64,000 bases of DNA from Cliona cf. orientalis (Eukaryota > Porifera > Demospongiae > Clionaida > Clionaidae). Shown here piece after piece: positions 1 to 64,000 of this stretch (position 1 is the stretch's first letter; each line of letters starts with the position of its first letter). The notes beneath the pieces were generated by a model. It ran no database searches. It saw only the letters and a list, made by a program, of their open reading frames with translations, and was not told the DNA's origin. The DNA lies in NCBI GenBank assembly GCA_963930775.1, contig OZ005707.1, positions 5,394,001 to 5,458,000 on the forward strand, written 5' to 3'. A program made the translations under genes and the position numbers.

Positions 1-754
1 GTGAATGAGCATATGAAAAATGGTTAGGTAGTTGCTGGGTCAGCATGTTTCATGGGAAAGGCATCCAGCTATGGTATGGAGGGAACACTCACCAAACATT
101 CCCTGACATTTGGTTAGCATGGGAACACACATTCTGGTTACCTTGTTGAAAGTCCTGCTGCTGGTACAATCCCCCTCACCCTACTTTCCCAGAATATTTC
201 TCAGAAGGCCATGCTTTGTAGGAGAACATGTAGCTTAAGTTAATTTATGAGTGTTTTGCTAAAGGTTTTTCTAGAAATTTTTTACCAATAAATAGTTCCC
301 TATTTTGCAAAATACAAGGTAATCAATGACCTCATTGGATTTTTCAGTGAATTCATGATTATTTTCGTGCTTTCCCTGTTTCCCAGTAACAACATAGAAA
401 CTGCTTATGTGTGTCTGCCTTAATTAATTAATTATTAACTGGTTCTTCCCCCTTGTGGTATAAACATTTCCTGCTTCAGTTTCCATACCTAGGTGCATGC
501 TTTGCTGAATTTGTGAGGGCTTTGGTTTAATTAAATTACATGTAGGACTTATCCCCTTGTAATTGGAGTGATTCTCAGCAAGGCTTTTAGGCTCTACCTA
601 TACTTCCATATCAAAGGCCATTGTTTGCATTGCCATGGTTTAAGATGTGGCAGGATTGAGTTTGCAAAGGTGCTACAAATTCCCCCTCTTGAAATATATA
701 CATGTATGTATGTGGTACCGCATTATTATTTTTTTTATTGTTGTTATTTTACAG
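1..754. other. Intron or upstream sequence of the docking-protein gene
   Basis: AT-rich non-coding sequence. It ends in a polypyrimidine tract and an acceptor AG at 753-754, just before a long coding exon that starts with a split codon. At least one upstream coding exon is therefore expected, probably to the left of the window. I could not find a coding exon here. A methionine at 702 is in frame with the exon, but its codons would run through the acceptor tract and encode a leucine/phenylalanine stretch, so I read it as intron. Confidence 0.6.
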
Positions 755-3700
755 ATCCCTTACTCGTCCAAAGACTAACTCCACGGGCAGCATGCCCACT
801 CCCCCTCCTCCCAGTGGCAGCAGCACAAACAAGCTAACTAAACAACAAACAGCACCTTCTCTCTCGCAGAAACCCTCCGTCCCACCGAAACCTCCCGTCG
901 CACCAAAGCCAGCCGCTTCACCAAAGCCTGCCACTTCACCAAAGCCTTCGCATCCACAACAGAACAAGCAGCAGCCGCCACCTCCCATAACAACATCCAC
1001 GCCCCAAAACGGTCAATCACCCAGCTCCACTCCAGAACAACTAAGCCAAGAAGCTTCCACGAGTGAAGGAGGGGGTAGCACTAGTGGCACTCCCGAGCCT
1101 CAGCTATTGTCTAGATCTGCAGCTACGAGTGGTACGACATCTCCAATTCCCGATTCCACTGATCTGGATCACATTCCACGAAGCTCTCCGACTGTTATGA
1201 GGAGCAATCGACCCACACTTAAAGGGCGACAGTCGCCAGTGGGCAAGCTCACAAAATCAATAACTACACCCGCTTTGAGCTCGGAGACTTACGATGTTCC
1301 TAAATCGCTTCAGACCCAGTTGAGCGCTGATGATGGAGGAGGGAACATTTACAACAACGTGTCTCTCTCTTCCTCCGGAGAGAATCCGCACGAACCCGAA
1401 AACACGTACCAGGTCCCTCGCCCGACCGTGGACAGCGAGTATCGCGTCCCGAGGCCGCAAGACGACATCTTGAATGAGCAGCGCCACTACCATCACCCTA
1501 AGCCTGCTGATGAAGTATACAAGATACCCACGTCTCGACCGATGTCTGGCACATACAGTTCTCTCCTAGGTCGTACCCCAGACAATTTGTATAGCAGTCC
1601 TAGACCCCCTCCCCATGGCACAAGGAGCCCCCAGGGCGTCTATTATAGTAACCCATCGGATGCTGATGATACAGCTAGTACTAGTGCTGCTGATAGTGCG
1701 ACCACTCAGACTAGTATTGTACCTGATGGTCAGCTGTATGGGAATGTGACTGTAGGTGTTTCAAACGAAGCCGGAGAGGCTGAGGAGAATTTCTACAACG
1801 TTCCACGTCCTGGGATTGAGCGACAAAAATCGCTAGAAAAACAGCAACAAGTGCAGTCTGAAGAGAAGGACGGTGTGGCAGATGGGCTATACAATATCCC
1901 TCGCTCATTAAGTGACAAACGACCAGGGGAAGTCCCTGAAGCGGAGGAAGGTTTGTACAAGGTACCGAGAAGTTCTGCAGGAGGGAGCAGCGATCAAGAA
2001 GGGCTGTACAAGGTACCACCACGAGCCGTGAAACAGTCAGGCTCCGAATCCCCACCTCCAAAGAATCCGTACGAGATGATTGACTTTGACGAGCCGCGAA
2101 GACTGCGGCCAGCCAGGAGCTTAGAGTCGCTGCATCGTGTTAAAACACTGCCTCCTCGAGGCAAAGGAAATAGCTACGTCGGCTTAAATGTTGACAAACC
2201 TTCCGGGCACCCTGTACCCACTGGGTGGATCCAGAAACAACCTCTCCCTCCCAGACCTACACAGCAAGCCTCCAGTGCGGCTGCCGATAATGTTTACGCT
2301 GAGATTCCCGAAGACCTATTGGCGAAGCACCGCATGGCTAAGGCTAATGGTAGGTGGAGCCCACCTGCCAGAGGTGAGAAAACTTTCGATAATCTTTACG
2401 TGTCTGGACCGGATGTGGCTGATTCCACTCAACAGCCAAATCGCTCCCTTTCTCCGTATGACAAATTGCCTCCTCCCAGAAGACCGAGTCCCGAAGTTGT
2501 AGCCAGCGAAGGGGTAGCAAAAGCCAAGGAGCTTGCAAGACAGGGCTACGAGTTGTGCTTGCCATCAGGAGAGGACCCCAGAACCTCAGCAGCAGGGGGG
2601 AGGACCCCTCCAATCAGCATGCCACCGAGAAATATCCCAAGAAAAAACTTTGATGTTGGGATAAGAGCTCAGAGAAGCATGTCTAGTAGTATGTCGGGCA
2701 GCGTACCCAAAGAAGGCATTCTTGGGACATCCATACCTTCAGACAGCACCACACCTAATGCAGACGAATATGTCATCATTACAAGATCTGACACTCGACT
2801 GAAATACACACAAACACTACCAAAGAGCACTTCCATTGGCCAAGTGCAGCTCGAGGGTTCAGCAAGTGCAGTGCCTTTACCGGAGGGCGATGAATATGAA
2901 CAAATGAACTCCATCAAATCGCAAGTTTGGTTGAAACAATCGTTGCACTATAGCACACCAAATCCATCCCTCCATCATAGCAATGGTGCTAGTACAAGTG
3001 TTACTACTACACAATCCACGGTCATATCAACGGGGGCGGAGTCAGGAGTGGCAGGGGGTGGAGCCAACCATCTCTATGGCAACATGGAATCCACGGACAA
3101 AGACTTCTCCGACCTAGATAGAGTCACTCGACCCACTGTCCCCAGCAATGAGCCATACTTTGCGAGATCAAAAACTCTCCCTCCTCGAAGAAAGACGGTG
3201 AGCTCATCGAGTGCCGACAGTGACGTGTTTGTCACCACTACAAGCCATAACTTTCAGGGGCCAGCGTCCATTCCCGAAGACCAGAAGACATTTGTACCAG
3301 TTGCTACTCATGACTTGGGAGGATCATCTGAGCTTAGGTGAGCCATTATGTAAATGCATAGTGTCTGTATTATAATAGTGCCTGTCCTCTAGTCCCAATG
3401 TTTTGCATTGGCCACAGTAAGATTGTGGCAATACCTAGCTCTCTAAAACTGATACTATATTAATCCAGCCTATTAAACAAATTTAGAGTTCCTTTACAAA
3501 TCATGGCAAGATCACAATAATTATTTATTGCTGGTATATATTATACAGATTGCGAAGTTGTTCAATGGATGACATTCTAGACAACGTAGCTGCCAAGCCC
3601 AAGAGACACTCCTACGTCAATGTCTCCAGCGACAGCTCCACTACTGAGCCAATCGCAAGAAGCAACAGCAGTGAACAAAACAAGCCTTCTCCTCCCACCA

Positions 3701-3825: not shown

Positions 3826-4220
3826 TTTTAAGGAAAACTAATAGCCAGCCGGCTGGACTTAAAATTAATATTATAACTTACTGTCACATTTTGTTGTGCT
3901 GCTGTCCGACTGATTTGTGTGCTTGCAAGCAGGTAGAATGTTAAGCCACTCGTGCCACTAATAATTATTACAAATTTTTGTTTTCTTTTGTGTTATTGTC
4001 TGTTTGATTTTGTTGTTTTACATGTAACATTCCGTTCACAGTTCCATCATTGTCTTTACCAGTATAATAATATTTGGCTAAAAATGTCATACTTATAGCT
4101 AGGGTGCATTCTCTGGATAAACGTGGGCGTGGATCGCTGCATGCGCCGACCAGCCCCTCCCACTTTGTAGGTCAAGTGGTTGGCGCGCGAGACTATTTGC
4201 GGACCAACTGAAGATTCAAT
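3826..4220. other. Intergenic, 3' UTR and promoter region
   Basis: AT-rich sequence after the docking-protein stop codon. It turns GC-richer from about 4110, just before the next start codon, which fits a short promoter. I see no coding potential or RNA gene. Confidence 0.5.
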
Positions 4221-4571
4221 ATGTCAAATTACGAAGATGATCCTGCGTATCAGAATCACCCCCGGCTCCAGCAACCTGATCCTGATGCTCACAATGGACC
4301 CACTACCAGATTGTTTCATATTAATACCTGGCCAAGAGTGATCAAGTGGGGCGTTATCTCTGTTGTTTTTGTGGGCGTATCATGTGCAGTTTTGTACAAA
4401 CTCCATTCTCTAAAGAGCTCCATCGAAGCATTAAAAACCACAGTTGAAACTGAAAGCACTCGAAACTTAACTATGCTGACTGGACTTCAGGATAAGATGA
4501 TGAATGAACTGAAATGGATTGAGGAACTCGTCAAAGAAATTGATTCAGATAAACTTGTCAGATTGGAATGA
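4221..4571 (+). CDS. Small single-pass membrane coiled-coil protein (116 aa)
   Basis: Single-exon frame from ATG 4221 to TGA. A soluble N terminus of about 38 residues is followed by one hydrophobic segment at about residues 42-60, then a charged helical tail rich in Leu, Glu and Lys, likely coiled coil. The sequence around the membrane segment and the following SSIEALKTTVE stretch closely matches the protein at 7792-8385 (SSIDALQNTVE), so the two are paralogues. This copy is shorter and lacks the C-terminal EKQxGxAV segment that the 7792 and 25316 proteins share. The function is unknown. It looks like a membrane-anchored oligomerisation module. A further exon downstream is possible but not needed. 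Confidence 0.7.
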   Translation: MSNYEDDPAYQNHPRLQQPDPDAHNGPTTRLFHINTWPRVIKWGVISVVFVGVSCAVLYKLHSLKSSIEALKTTVETESTRNLTMLTGLQDKMMNELKWIEELVKEIDSDKLVRLE

Positions 4572-4743
4572 AGTTAGCATATTAAATTATAGTTTTATAA
4601 ATCAGGTGAAAACATCACTGGCCTTTAATATTTGAAATTGAATTAAATATAATATAGACTCTATTATATTGAAGTGACTATCTAAGTTCTATTATTAAAA
4701 CAACAGTCGAACCAATACGTGTATCGGATGGTACTGAATACTA

Positions 4744-4755
4744 TGCGCATGCGCA
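4744..4755. promoter_or_regulatory. NRF1-like palindrome in the CARD-SH2-PTB gene promoter
   Basis: A perfect 12 bp palindrome, TGCGCATGCGCA, matches the NRF1 consensus. It lies about 100 bp upstream of the ATG at 4854, in otherwise AT-rich DNA. Similar motifs precede the genes at 25316 and 27209. Confidence 0.45.
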
Positions 4756-4853
4756 CGTAGAACAATGTACCACTCCGCGCACGCCCTGCATCAATAGTTT
4801 TACGCCTCGTCGCTACTATCAGACTACTCCCCAATCATCTCAGACCATAGACC

Positions 4854-7510
4854 ATGGCCAGGAACACGGAAGAATATCTTGCGATGATCAAAGCCACCAG
4901 TAAACTTACGTGCGCGGTGAAGAATGATCTTGTATGGCTAAGTGCAGAGCTGGTCTCGAGTCAGCTTATCACTGCTGACCAAGGAGCAGAACTGAGAAAC
5001 GGAAAAATTGATGAGTTGGAACGAGCTGCACACGTTGTGAAGCTCATCACTGACAAAGTGGAGCAGGATAGAAAGAATTTTCGTCTCTTTATCAGACTTT
5101 TGATTGAAAACCGGAGTGCGTATGCTGATGTACTGAAATGCCTTGAGCCAGTCTACATCAATACAGGTATGGTATCTAATAAAGAGGACTAGTAGCACTA
5201 CTATGGAGATTGGAACCTCCTACTAAGCTATATAAATTGAGCTGAATACCATGCTGGCTTTGCAATTGTCTGATGTATGCACATGTTGGGCCCTCGAGTT
5301 CCCTGTGCATGTACATTAATAGTTATTAAGTGAAGCTAATCTTTATTCTAGCTAGCAGCTAGCTTCAGCTTGCTGAAATTGCACTCAAAGTGGCTACGTA
5401 TACTAATTTTGCAGCGTCTACTGTGTCTCTGCATGTTTACATGTCATGCGCATAATAATACTAAACCCTGTGTTGTGTATGAGTGTCCAGCTTGATGTGA
5501 TTGTGTGCCTATATATAACATCACTGTTGTGATGATGCCTGATCACATGTTATGAATTCATAGCCATAATTAGTACATCATGTCTTCCTGTCTCAACGAG
5601 TTATGGTGAATCTATCACAATCAAATTTATTACAATGCATGATGAAATACAAATATTGTGTCCCAAATCCAAAATTAATTATAGCTATGCCTGAATCAGC
5701 ACTAGTATATTATGATATTGTGGACTTGTATGGAAAATGATGCTCAGTCCAAGCATCACTACAATATAAATACAGTAACGCATGACTCAATTGATGCATG
5801 ATCAGTGTGTGGTAAATACTGACCGTATTTGCTATAATATGGGCATAGAATTATGATCCAGTGAGACAATTGTTATACAAGCATACCTTATACTGACCCA
5901 TGATTTTTTGTTTCAAGGAGGTCATGTTTACAACAGGGGTGCTCCTGCTGTACTAACAATCACCCAGCCATGGTATCACAAGAGATTATCAAGAGAAGAT
6001 GCAAATAAACGATTGAAAACTATGAACACAAATAATTCTTTCCTTGTCAGAGAGAGTACCAAGGAGTCTGGAAAGTTAGTGCTCTCAGTAAAGAACTGTG
6101 ACAAATTTTATCATTTCCATATCGAGCGTGGTGTTGGGTCCTATCAGGTGGAAGGAACTGATGAGCCATTTTCATCAGTGGTTGAGTTGGTTGATCACTA
6201 CAAACAGTTTGGTCTTCCCGAGAGTGACAGTGGGAAAGTGATACTTCTTGAGTTGCCATGTGTTCATGATGATTCTCCCATCGACAGTAAGTACTACAGT
6301 CTATGAGATTTGAAAACAGTGTTTGTCAATTGTAGCAAATAATTAATGTTAGATGCTCCTGCCCTATACATGTACTAGTTGATAAAAAATTTAACTAATA
6401 ATAAGCCAATACTCAGCAATCAAATTTTTATAATAATAATCTTGACTCACTTACTACTGTATCCATGTATCAGGATTTGATGCCAATGCTACTGGCTTCA
6501 ATGGAAGTTTCTCTGGTCCTTGCACTATTTGTCTTGATCATCAAGCTATCACCATCATTTATGAACAAGATGAAGCTGAGATAGCCACGTGGCCCTATAA
6601 ATTCATCCGCAGCTTTAATTTCAATGAACCTGGCAAATTTAGCTTTATATCAGGAAATCAAGGTCCTTTTGGAGTGGGAGAGTACACCTTTGAAGTTCAC
6701 AATGTCAAAACACTTGAATACTCACTCAAAAAATTCATAGGAAATCAGATATGTCGGAGTAGGGCAAAACCACAACCATACTATTACCCTCAGTGTCATT
6801 GCACAGAAGAAAAGAAATACCTCTCTGACTCTGTTGATAGTAAATCTGTGTTTGTATCCCATGGATTTGCCAATAATAATATACATTCTTCACCTCATAT
6901 TAAGCCTCCTGGTCCCACAAGAGATTGTCTTCATTTGTCCACAGAGGTCGATGATCCTCTGAGCTTGACTGGAGGTGGTTTTCCATTGAGACATTCCTTC
7001 TCCACTGGTGACCTCCTTGAGTCTAGTTCTTTGTCCTCTTATCCTCCACGGCAAGTATCCCACAAGACACATGTACGTTTGTTTGTGTCTTTGAGTGGTG
7101 AAGGTCCTTGCATAGTTGAAGATGACCAGCACCAATCGAACTCAACACAATGTGCATGTACTTCTGGTAGCGTTCTCCTAGCTCATCCAAAAGCCGATTC
7201 TAACGTTGGAAGAGTACTACCCACTCCTACTTCCTCCAGCAGCAGTGGCACATCTACCAGCTCCAACAATCCAAAGAATATTAAACAACAAACACGTGTT
7301 TTACCAGCTTATTCAAACAGTCAGCCACCTTCTGAGATGCTGGATTTGAGTGTCACTCCCAAGCAAGCTACACCGGATGATGTACCACAAATTGCCGCTG
7401 ACGTCAGCAATGTAGGATACCTCCCAAGGAGTTCTCCACTAGTTTCAAAGAATTCTTATCTTAAATTTAAGTCTAAGTTGAAATGTGACCATCTCAATAA
7501 TTCACGGTGA
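4854..7510 (+). CDS. CARD-like - SH2 - IRS-type PTB adaptor protein (572 aa)
   Basis: Three exons, 4854-5166, 5918-6286 and 6474-7510. All junctions are GT-AG and phase-compatible (phase 1 at both). The start has a Kozak-like context (accATGg) and an in-frame TAG just upstream. Residues 1-104 form a helical death-fold module resembling a CARD: the hydrophobic pattern, LITADQ after helix 2, a central ELERAAHVVKLI, then NFRLFIRLL and ADVLKCLE. Residues about 123-215 are an SH2 domain beginning PWYHKRLS, with the phosphate-binding arginine in FLVRES (about Arg149) and YHFHIE. Residues about 237-320 match an IRS/Dok-type PTB: WPYKFIRSF, then GKFSF and GEYTFEV. The tail is Ser/Pro-rich with GYLPRS and NSYLKF tyrosines. 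The likely job is to couple a death-fold assembly to phosphotyrosine signalling. It lies between two coiled-coil membrane genes. The first PTB strand is not obvious. The CARD call is by pattern only. Confidence 0.8.
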
Positions 7511-60264: not shown

Positions 60265-63200
60265 ATGACTCTAAAGCAGACTTCAGCTTTAATTGATGTT
60301 CAGCTCTTCAAAGATAAGATCCTTGGCATAGGTATAATAATTATTGTGAGTGTATGTAGTTATCTTCCTGACAATTTGCATTGATTCAGACTTGATGATA
60401 CACCCATAGGTTCCTTTGGGAAGGTCTATAGAGCAAGATACGGTAGTCTTCCCTGTGCAGCTAAAGTCATCCATGAGACACTCTTTGACCCGAGAGCTTC
60501 CAAGAAGAGACCACAAAAAGAGAAGCACAGGCAACCTTTTAAGAGATTCAAGCAAGAATGTGAGGTTCTCCACAACTTGAGGCATCCAAACATCATCCAG
60601 TACCTGGACGTGTACCAAGATCCTGAAACTAAGCTACCTGTTTTACTGATGGAGCTCATGGATGGCAGCTTGACACACTTCCTCGAAGACTCCTTGCAAC
60701 AAATTCCCCTTCATATTCAAGTCAATTTCACCCATGATGTTGCTCTGGCACTCTCGTTTCTTCATGCAAATAAAATCGTCCATCGCGATCTCTCCAGCAA
60801 CAATATTTTACTGATCAGCAACGTCAGAGCCAAGGTGACTGACTTTGGAATGGCCATGCTACAAGAAGCAACCCAAAGTACCCGCACTGTACGTCCAGGT
60901 ACAAATGTCTACATGCCCCCAGAAGCAGTACAAGACAACCCCGTCTATACAGAGAAGATCGACTGCTTCTCTTTGGGTGTCATAATCATCCAAATTTTGA
61001 CCCTGTGCTTCCCAGCACCAAGTGACCGACAAGAAGAATTAGAGACTCTCCCTGGAAGATTGCAGAAAGGGAGAAAGATTATGACAACTGTACCAGAAGT
61101 GGAGCGCCGAAAGAATCACATCGACTTGGTCCAACCAAATCATCCACTTCTCACAATCGCTCTCAATTGTCTGCAAGACATAGAATCCAATCGTCCATCT
61201 GCTCAGGAGATCTGTGAGATGGTGGCTACCTTGAAGGAAAGCACTGAGTACACTGAGAGTGCCAAAGGGGGAGATAAAGAAGAGAAGCATCATAATGTCA
61301 ATGATACAAGCAGCTGGGGACAAGAGGCAGATAGTGAGGAAATTGGGCGACTGAAGGAGTTGATTTGTCAAGCCATAGCAGCTAAAGAAAGAGAAATTGA
61401 GGATCTAAGGAAGCAAATAGTTGATAATACTGAGAGTCCCCAGCAATGGGAGAAGCCACCTCAAGACACTAAAGAGCCCAAGAAAGAGTATTCAAATTAT
61501 CTCACTGAGAAAGATTTTAAAGAAGATCATGAGGTTTAAATTTATTCACAATAATTCTTTCATTGTGCACAATCATGATAACATAAATAATTTAGATGGA
61601 GCAGTTGGGTGAATTTCCTGAAGGTGTAACAGCAATAAAGGTTGAAAAACCCCATCAAGAAGAAGGCCACTCAAAGCCAATGGTCAGACATTAATTAGTA
61701 TTTAAATACTAAATAAGTCTACACGTTCTGATAGTATGGAATATTTATGTGAGAGAATCATAATATTATTATTATTATGCTTACAAGACTGATCTATCTA
61801 TGCAGGTACTCACTGATAAGCCATGGTATCATGGAGTTCTATCTCAACAAGAAGCGGAGAAGAGGATGGTAGAGATGGATATGAACACTTTCCTGGTCAG
61901 AGAAAGCGTACAGGATAAGGGTAATCTATTCCTCTCTGTGAAGAATGGTGACAAGTGCTACCACTTTCCAATCATTGACCATGGTTCTGGTTTAAAAAGG
62001 TACGAGATCCACGGAACTAGCGTTCTATTTCCTTCAGTACCAGAGTTGGTGAAGTACTACCAGCAGCACGGCCTTCCTGAGAGCACTGATGGGAAACTGA
62101 TACACCTGACAAGGGCGTGCTCTTCTGGCACTACTCCTCAGCCTGCTAGGCCACGAAATTTGAAGCAGCATGACTACAACAGTATTGATGGTGATGAGGA
62201 TGCTGATAACGATGACCGTGATATAAAGTACTAAAGGATTGATTTAGTAGTATAATAGGTATAGCTACTATAATTTTGACTTAAACCAATCTACAGCCAG
62301 TTCAAAGTCCAAGGCGATCATACTAATGTCTCAGATGAGCCATTGAGTTCGCCCAGACCACGCCTCAAAGCAGTAGCAGTATATGGTAATCAATAAATTG
62401 TGTAATAGTGAGATATCATTAATAACAATGTCATTATTGACAGGACGTGCACGTGCTCAGTTCATACCACAAAAGAAACATTGCACATCTCAAGCTCCCG
62501 CTGAACAGGTTGGACCTGATGATGTCCATGGTCTTCCTACTCCAGCAAGTCCAGACTCAGCTAGTCATGCCAGTACTTCATTGCAAAAACCCGGCTCTAA
62601 TAAGAGTGAAAGATTCAGCATTTTGGAAAAAACAAAGGTTATTATCGTTATGTTAAAACACGGTTAATATCAAACTGTATGATTGGTAGGTCCCACAAGC
62701 ATAATACTATGAAATCCCATCACCAATTTCAACCAAGAATAATGGGATAGAATCCTCAGTAGGAACATGGAGTCCTATTCTGATATATTATTATTGCATT
62801 GAACACAATGCACTATATAACACAGGTGACAAAAGAACAGATGTATGAATTCTCTAGCTATGAAGTGCCGCAACCTCAGAGTGAACAGATGTATGAATTC
62901 TGTAGCTATGAAGTGCTGCAACCTCAGAGCGAACAGATGTACGAATTTAGCTGCTATGCAGTGCCACAAACTCAAAGCAAATACTCTGATTATGTGAGTG
63001 GCGGCATATCAGAGTCGGATCCATGCATGTCATGTTATACTGGCACTTCTCTTGTTCATGCATGTACCATACTTAAAAAATATAGAATTCTCTTTCCTGT
63101 GTGGAGGAAAACATTTATATGGCTCCAGCTACTGATGAGGATGCACTATACCACCAACTATCACAGAGTGGGATTAAGAATATCTATAGAGATTCTCTCA

Positions 63201-64000
63201 GGTCAGTTAATCATAACTACTGCATGGTATAATATGTCATTTCTGTATCTACGTATAATAATATCATTATCATTATGCAACTATGACAAGGCTATAGTAT
63301 AGATTCAAACTCTTATTAATACAGGTTAATACATTCGATAGGATCAGGTCAGTTTGGTGTAGTTTATCAAGGAGAGTGGATGACCTCAAAATCAGGAGAG
63401 AAGATTGACGTGGCCATAAAGACACTCATAGAAGCAACCTCAATGGAGGATAAGATCAGGTTTCTCCAGGAGGCAGCCATCATGGGACAGTTCTCTCACC
63501 CAAATGTTGTCAAGCTTTATGGTGTAGTTTCAAAAGGAGAACCTGTGAGTGCCATTTATAGCTCACATTATATGATTATACCGTAATTCATTTCTGGGAC
63601 TTATATATATAGATAATGTTGATCATTGAATTTTTGCATAAAGGAGATCTTAGAGAAGTACTGCTTGGCCAGCTACACCCTGAAACTCCGTACGCTTATC
63701 TTATTAGGCATGCATGTATTTAATCTCACACACATGCATGCACGGTTCTGTTTATATCCTTAGAGGATCCAATGAGATTGATACTGACCTTTCCTCAATT
63801 TTGCTGAGCTACACTCGTCAAATAGCCTCTGGAATGAGTTACCTCTCTTCTAAGCTATTTGTACACAGAGATCTGGCAGCTAGGAACATCTTGATATCTA
63901 AAGATGATGTTTGCAAGGTTGTAGATTAGTCTCGATACTAGACCAATTCCACCGTGGAGCTAAAAAAAGAACTAAAAAGGAACTAAATGCTGCTGTGATG
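60265..64000 (+). CDS. TKL-type kinase - SH2 - tyrosine kinase fusion protein (3' end beyond window)
   Basis: Eleven exons join in frame: 60265-60331, 60410-61533, 61596-61682, 61806-62227, 62297-62385, 62444-62637, 62826-62993, 63107-63201 (or from 63086), 63325-63544, 63613-63689, 63764-63917 (about 899 residues so far). An in-frame TAG precedes the ATG. The first kinase (about residues 18-290) has [23 protein letters not shown] (Asp149) and VTDFG (Asp167), so it looks active and TKL/serine-threonine-like. A charged helix ([16 protein letters not shown]) follows. SH2 spans about 432-530, with PWYHGVLS and FLVRES (Arg458). Next come three EQMYEF repeats, NIYMAP and NIYRDS tyrosines. The second kinase starts near residue 750, with [17 protein letters not shown], and tyrosine-kinase-specific VHRDLAARN (about Asp884). 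DFG would lie beyond 64000. The weakest link is donor GAG|GTTTAA at 61534. Alternatively these are two adjacent genes. Confidence 0.8.

Follow-up and report, generated by a model that had tools for sequence, protein, structure and literature searches.

JAKs are cytosolic proteins with an SH2 domain and two kinase-like domains, in which FERM and SH2 precede both of the latter. The first kinase-like domain is a pseudokinase according to the available part of PMC3934975, which also describes Dictyostelium Pyk3 as a protein with two kinase domains, of the TKL group, the first predicted to be a pseudokinase. Dictyostelium SHK1-5 combine a TKL-group kinase and an SH2 domain, in an organism without the TK group (PMC1420674, available part). 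TKL, SH2, and intact TK domains in one protein are absent from the available parts of PMC8662651, PMC1420674, PMC3934975, and PMC4758236, and a literature search of titles and abstract openings, with most subscription journals outside its scope, found no description of a TKL-SH2-TK or TKL-PH-TK protein.

The sequence considered here, referred to as the window, is a stretch of 64,000 nt (C19:5394001-5458000) from the 216.8 Mb assembly of the sponge Cliona cf. orientalis. A preliminary description of its end proposed that a TKL-type kinase, an SH2 domain, tyrosine-motif repeats, and a tyrosine kinase (TK) share a single reading frame, here called gene A, and distinguished the arrangement from both JAKs and SHKs. 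That distinction is correct. Like the SHKs, gene A would combine TKL and SH2 in one protein if it is one transcript, but it has a further kinase, the TK domain at residues 756-1024, whereas the available part of the source gives SHKs without a TK-group domain. Like the JAKs, it would be a cytosolic protein with SH2 and two kinase-like domains, but its first kinase has the CAAK, HRD, and DFG motifs and is intact, as first described, rather than a pseudokinase; its SH2 (residues 433-511) lies between the kinases, not before both; and a Pfam scan finds no FERM. Membership in either family was rejected on these features. Pyk3 is similar in having two kinase domains in one protein, but as far as the available text goes its first kinase is a predicted pseudokinase, no SH2 is named, and its group is TKL, not TK. 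As for Src-type SH3-SH2-kinase proteins, Pfam detects no SH3 in gene A, and its TK falls outside the SH2-TK kinases of its own genome.

Gene structure and domains

As read here, gene A consists of 14 exons on the forward strand (window 60265-64779, the reading having been extended beyond the window end) and encodes 1069 aa. All 13 introns are GT-AG and in frame, with lengths of 58-188 nt, the critical one being 62 nt. The ten within the window had already been described as such, and were confirmed by a splice and frame check; the coordinates given for the junctions 61533|61596 and 62637|62826 are exact. The motifs lie where they had been described, single exons give Pfam matches to the TKL kinase, SH2, and TK, and a domain search of the joined protein, which had been suggested as a check, returns Pkinase (17-292), SH2 (433-511), and PK_Tyr (756-1024) in the order claimed. 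Chance ORFs were rejected as an explanation, the domain E-values being beyond chance.

Exon 1 (60265..60331) carries the start codon and the N-terminal stretch as far as the TKL glycine loop; it matches the N-terminus of a downstream paralogue, B (E 9e-5), and weakly that of a second, C (0.027). Exon 2 (60410..61533) includes the TKL kinase (Pfam Pkinase 2.6e-44), a helical tail, and an end reading NYLTEKDF, directly followed by an in-frame GTT TAA (61534-61539). Exon 3 (61596..61682) is a linker corresponding to an exon of B and C, and exon 4 (61806..62227) contains the SH2 domain, with FLVRES, and an HDYNSID motif (Pfam SH2 5.2e-14). Each of these two has a second in-frame AG, at 61605 and 61788 respectively, which would serve as an alternative acceptor; both score lower in a small splice matrix, and 61605 is the position at which the corresponding exon of B and C begins. 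Two further linkers follow: exon 5 (62297..62385), whose sequence is continuous with SH2 in the foreign predicted protein P0123, and exon 6 (62444..62637), which is Ser/Pro-rich and was placed by frame only. Exon 7 (62826..62993) has three 16-residue repeats, from a 48-nt tyrosine-motif repeat in three copies (62835-62978; pairwise identity 45, 37, and 38 of 48 bases), and aligns with the Tyr-rich juxtamembrane part of the Halichondria receptor kinase P0019; exon 8 (63086..63201), a juxtamembrane-type segment, was aligned to the same protein. The TK N-lobe is in exon 9 (63325..63544; Pfam PK_Tyr_Ser-Thr 2.2e-20), the hinge in exon 10 (63613..63689; placed by frame, the joined-protein Pfam match, and the P0019 alignment), and the catalytic loop, HRDLAARN, in exon 11 (63764..63917; PK_Tyr_Ser-Thr 2.7e-16). 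Exons 12-14, beyond the window end (64088-64180, 64294-64502, and 64590-64779), complete the TK and end in TGA.

Both kinases retain the ATP-site Lys, the HRD Asp, and the DFG Asp (the TKL Lys, in CAAK, was located by eye), and both domains are putatively active. The TKL catalytic loop reads HRDLSSNN. Ser/Thr kinases usually carry a Lys in this loop; because it is missing here, the label “Ser/Thr-type” originally attached to this domain is not established. Searched by sequence against solved structures, both kinases match an EGFR two-kinase construct first, followed by IRAK4 (~1e-22) and CTR1 (3e-21) for the TKL and by FAK, Eph, and IGF1R for the TK; the SH2 domain matches SHP-2, SHP-1, and ZAP-70. 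A structure model of the TKL exon is of low confidence (mean pLDDT 55.9), with a helix at 304-340 of the modeled piece standing out.

One gene or two

Frame compatibility alone is weak evidence for a single gene, because two neighboring genes could show it too, and the joins of exon 3 to 4 and of exon 5 through 6 to 7 are predicted from reading frame alone. Donor and acceptor matrices, which have little power when built from 13 introns, show introns 2 and 3 to be no outliers. The comparative evidence nevertheless suggests that gene A is one transcript, and we consider this quite probable.

The main alternative is a TKL gene next to a cytosolic SH2-TK gene, perhaps cooperating but not fused. 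The first would end at 61539, at the in-frame stop immediately behind exon 2, or at 61694, since exon 3 left unspliced reads to a TAA at 61692-61694 and contains an AATAAA at 61634; the second would start at the ATG that opens exon 3 (61596) or at an in-frame ATG ahead of SH2 (61800). The TKL family moreover occurs without a TK, in TKL-Kelch proteins and in genes B and C. Against this, the TKL stop and exon 3 are only 56 nt apart, and the paralogues suggest that exon 3 belongs with what precedes it. B (from 5459231) and C (from 5482676) follow A in tandem, with TKL domains 68-71% identical. Behind the TKL, each has an exon reading NYMTRE-HLDQQ (B) or NYMTRE-DLDQQ (C, read from the ORF list) and then the LGIFPEG exon, with phase-0 boundaries. 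In gene A the equivalent NYLTEKDF end is part of the TKL exon itself, rather than a separate exon as in B and C, and exon 3 (LGEFPEG) corresponds to the LGIFPEG exon in place, phase, and order. Its homology rests on these (place, phase 0, and order), because the sequence match to B is weak by itself (56.5% over 23 residues, E 0.018). In C, the LGIFPEG exon runs on without interruption into a segment beginning GQRRHSFT, which in B ends a later exon; genes B and C therefore extend beyond the LGIFPEG exon.

Nor is the stop behind exon 2 a constant feature. P0121, a foreign piece of 316 aa that is 92% identical to exon 2 and was the sole match of its search, reads DHE-VCSQ-stop where gene A has DHE-V-stop: the V codon with its GT is retained and the TKL stop is not, so that the stop is not conserved and the GT is compatible with a donor. 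The upstream limit of the SH2 exon was examined in a similar way. Thirty-two relatives of this exon were found and 21 aligned, of which 13 have residues in the column of ATG 61800; none of the 13 has Met there (in one of them, P0141, the alignment is doubtful), and eight have in common a Y-[D/N]-T-x-L motif at this position. The other eight aligned sequences start further downstream, their ends being the gene caller's choice. Two separate genes therefore seem unlikely. The single-gene claim of the preliminary description thus gains support from paralogues, from foreign pieces (P0123, running from SH2 into exon 5, among them), and from the alignment of exons 7-14 with a receptor kinase (below); its domain order and key residues hold, and the join of exon 3 to exon 4 is predicted by frame.

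Origin of the parts

Downstream of SH2, exons 7-14 match P0019 at 51% over 408 aa, covering most of its cytoplasmic portion, including the juxtamembrane part and the C-tail. In tyrosine kinase trees, the gene A TK lies within a clade of sponge receptor kinases that includes Ephydatia P0001, Halichondria P0019 and P0070, and Amphimedon P0005 (support 97/96, and 90/88 in another tree; midpoint rooted, with open forks). P0019 resembles gene A in its juxtamembrane motif and C-tail; it and P0070, the two checked by hydropathy, have a membrane span, where gene A has TKL-SH2 instead. The receptor-kinase ectodomain and span are not present in gene A, and no membrane span was found by hydropathy between its kinases: the 19-residue maximum there is 0.26, vs. 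3.23 for the P0019 span. The TKL tree groups A, B, C, and P0121 with TKL-Kelch proteins (P0011, P0015, and others) in one clade, with support 98/100, although this tree, also midpoint rooted with open forks, carries a long-branch warning. TKL-Kelch proteins differ in having Kelch repeats, of which a Pfam scan finds none in gene A, and in lacking its SH2-TK portion.

The SH2 exon has relatives of its own, both in neighboring genes (window 5857-6306; 5471545, 5502904, and 5510920), at 45-50% identity, and among foreign sequences, at 47-94%, including P0122 (92%) and P0123 (83%). Because the relatives of its TKL, TK, and SH2 domains belong to different families, the most plausible view of gene A is a mosaic in which a Kelch-family TKL, an SH2 exon, and the tail of a receptor kinase have come together. 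The best overall explanation, to which we assign a probability of roughly 0.6, is that it encodes a cytosolic dual kinase (TKL, helical tail, SH2, tyrosine-motif linker, and receptor-type TK) in which the TKL module with the SH2 exon occupies the place of a sponge receptor kinase's ectodomain and membrane span.

The neighboring SH2 genes (window 4212-6306; near 5471545, 5502904, and 5510920) have an upstream helical segment that appears CARD-like by eye, as judged in the window and L010 copies. A CARD assignment was rejected: the window copy has no Pfam match, and the L010 copy is below the cut-off (0.0058). The window copy also has a stretch resembling a membrane span. Adjoining these genes are SH2 domains at C19:5505138 and 5515480, which by eye we take to resemble those of PI3K p85.

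Genes B and C took a different course behind the N-terminal module they share with A. Each has a tensin-like SH2 there (B, 2kno 2.5e-9; C, Pfam SH2 1.5e-7), and no TK exons were found in either before the next TKL by a scan that detected those of gene A; both are apparently TKL-tensin fusions. A PTB domain behind the tensin-like SH2 of B was considered and rejected, with no Pfam match and a PDB search reaching E 0.09 only. For the TKL kinase, dN/dS is 0.27 for A/B, 0.27 for A/C, and 0.19 for B/C, values which, as sequence comparisons, show purifying selection on this domain among the paralogues; for the tail, the corresponding values are 0.68, 0.68, and 0.46.

Gene A could conceivably also be a young chimera, generated by local duplication and transcribed or not, with no selected function as a fusion. 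Its parts do come from different families, no copy of the full order is among the matches listed (below), the tail evolves faster than the kinase (0.68 vs. 0.27), and the region behind APE is odd, the TK being three residues longer than P0019 there and the acceptor of that exon weak. Yet an uninterrupted frame of 1069 codons retains the key residues, and close foreign pieces exist for both TKL (P0121) and SH2 (P0122 and P0123), although these lie on separate contigs of differing size and do not imply linkage of TKL and SH2 there. We regard this origin as improbable. Nearby tandem repeats favor misjoins, but an assembly artefact joining two places in the genome is very improbable indeed, given a contig of 7.2 Mb, the lack of any N across 287.5 kb of inspected sequence, and a paralogue structure that agrees up to exon 3.

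Other TKL-TK fusions

A protein search that scored 8000 candidates of 588-1870 aa gave 4091 matches, of which 120 were listed; none of these 120 is known to combine TKL, SH2, and TK. SH2 appears in the Pfam lists of two of them, P0010, with three TK-like domains, and P0056, named Srms. Named relatives among the matches listed are mostly from Ephydatia, Halichondria, and Amphimedon, with one mammalian. A scan of viral contigs with the SH2 alignment gave 17 pattern matches, none of them a relative. In the sponge's own genome, a kinase scan that scored 119 of 2511 candidates turned up a 2925-aa ORF (C17:2316562-2325288) with ten tyrosine-kinase matches, in which another scan placed one SH2 match.

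The joining of TKL to TK is not unique to gene A: two other ways were seen. The first is an array about 100 kb downstream (C19:5560-5660 kb; 5560096-5659869), with nine units of TKL, PH (Pfam 4.2e-6), tyrosine motifs, and TK, one of them inverted with the same internal order. Like gene A, these have TKL first, then an adaptor domain, tyrosine motifs, and TK last, but the adaptor is PH, not SH2. No PH1 was detected in the first unit or the inverted one. The array also holds three TKL copies without TK, at 5556564 (short) and at 5609353 and 5624747 (both with PH exons). For U2-U6 and U7b, the splice between TKL tail and PH1 was tested, with sites picked by eye and frame checked by script; all six have an AAG|GTA donor, a CAG acceptor, and phase 0 on both sides, with introns of 56-489 nt and no Met opening the PH exon. 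Because U2-U5 are close copies, the six amount to about three lines of independent descent. The count does not include U8b, which resembles U7b at this junction. Between the tyrosine part and the TK, U2, U6, and U8b have a conserved segment reading LADLxQKALFLPRS or similar. Some units are damaged, with stops in the TKL of U5, PH2 of U4, and TK of U7b, and the TKLs of U2-U5 have HCDL in place of HRDL. Alternating separate receptor kinase and TKL genes were considered and dropped as an interpretation of the array, given the shared PH exons and phase-0 junctions.

The second is a group of foreign predicted proteins, P0004 and P0006-P0009 (1418-1476 aa), which like gene A join a TKL to TK-like domains in a single chain. 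They differ in having three TK-like domains each, all 15 of them degraded (without an HRD or DFG motif), and SH3, which precomputed Pfam lists give for each of the five and which was refound in P0004 and P0006. At 4860 bp, the P0006 contig could hardly accommodate introns; for P0004 and P0007-P0009, the single chain is a prediction.

The array TKL is on another branch than that of gene A, as are those of P0004, P0006, P0007, and P0009 (P0008 was not in the tree); the array TK is sister to the receptor clade (99/96). It is somewhat more probable than the reverse that TKL-TK fusion arose independently at least twice, perhaps three times, in sponges, as a recurrent design. Our confidence in this was lowered slightly because the gene A TK, with the receptor clade, forms the sister group of the array TKs, an arrangement which may instead reflect a single ancestral TKL-TK fusion with later swaps.

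Possible function

If gene A encodes a cytosolic dual kinase, its SH2 domain could recruit the protein to phosphotyrosines of docking proteins or activated receptors. Crowding, together with the helical tail, would then draw the tyrosine kinase domains together, and these would phosphorylate in trans both the EEYY of their activation loop and the YEFS and YEVP sites of the linker repeats. The phosphorylated sites may attract further SH2 proteins, including copies of the gene A protein, so that the signal would spread, and the clustered TKL domain would deliver a second phosphorylation output, by analogy to IRAK or RIPK kinases, which signal by phosphorylation when clustered. We propose this order of events only tentatively. 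Elsewhere in the window is an 882-aa ORF (693-3341) with many YxxP motifs, p130Cas-like by eye and without a Pfam match; such a protein would suit as a docking partner. A TKL head, adaptor domain, and TK tail perhaps serve immune or self-recognition pathways.

In animals, TK and TKL kinases are usually seen as distinct proteins brought together by adaptors. Gene A is most likely a single gene in which two intact kinases of different classes are arranged around a phosphotyrosine-binding domain, and the locus is that of a mosaic kinase gene adjoining families that share its parts. A lineage in which TKL and TK were repeatedly wired into single chains, with SH2 or PH at the center, would illustrate another route by which early animals built phosphotyrosine circuits, and the order of a two-kinase relay would become testable in a single purified protein.
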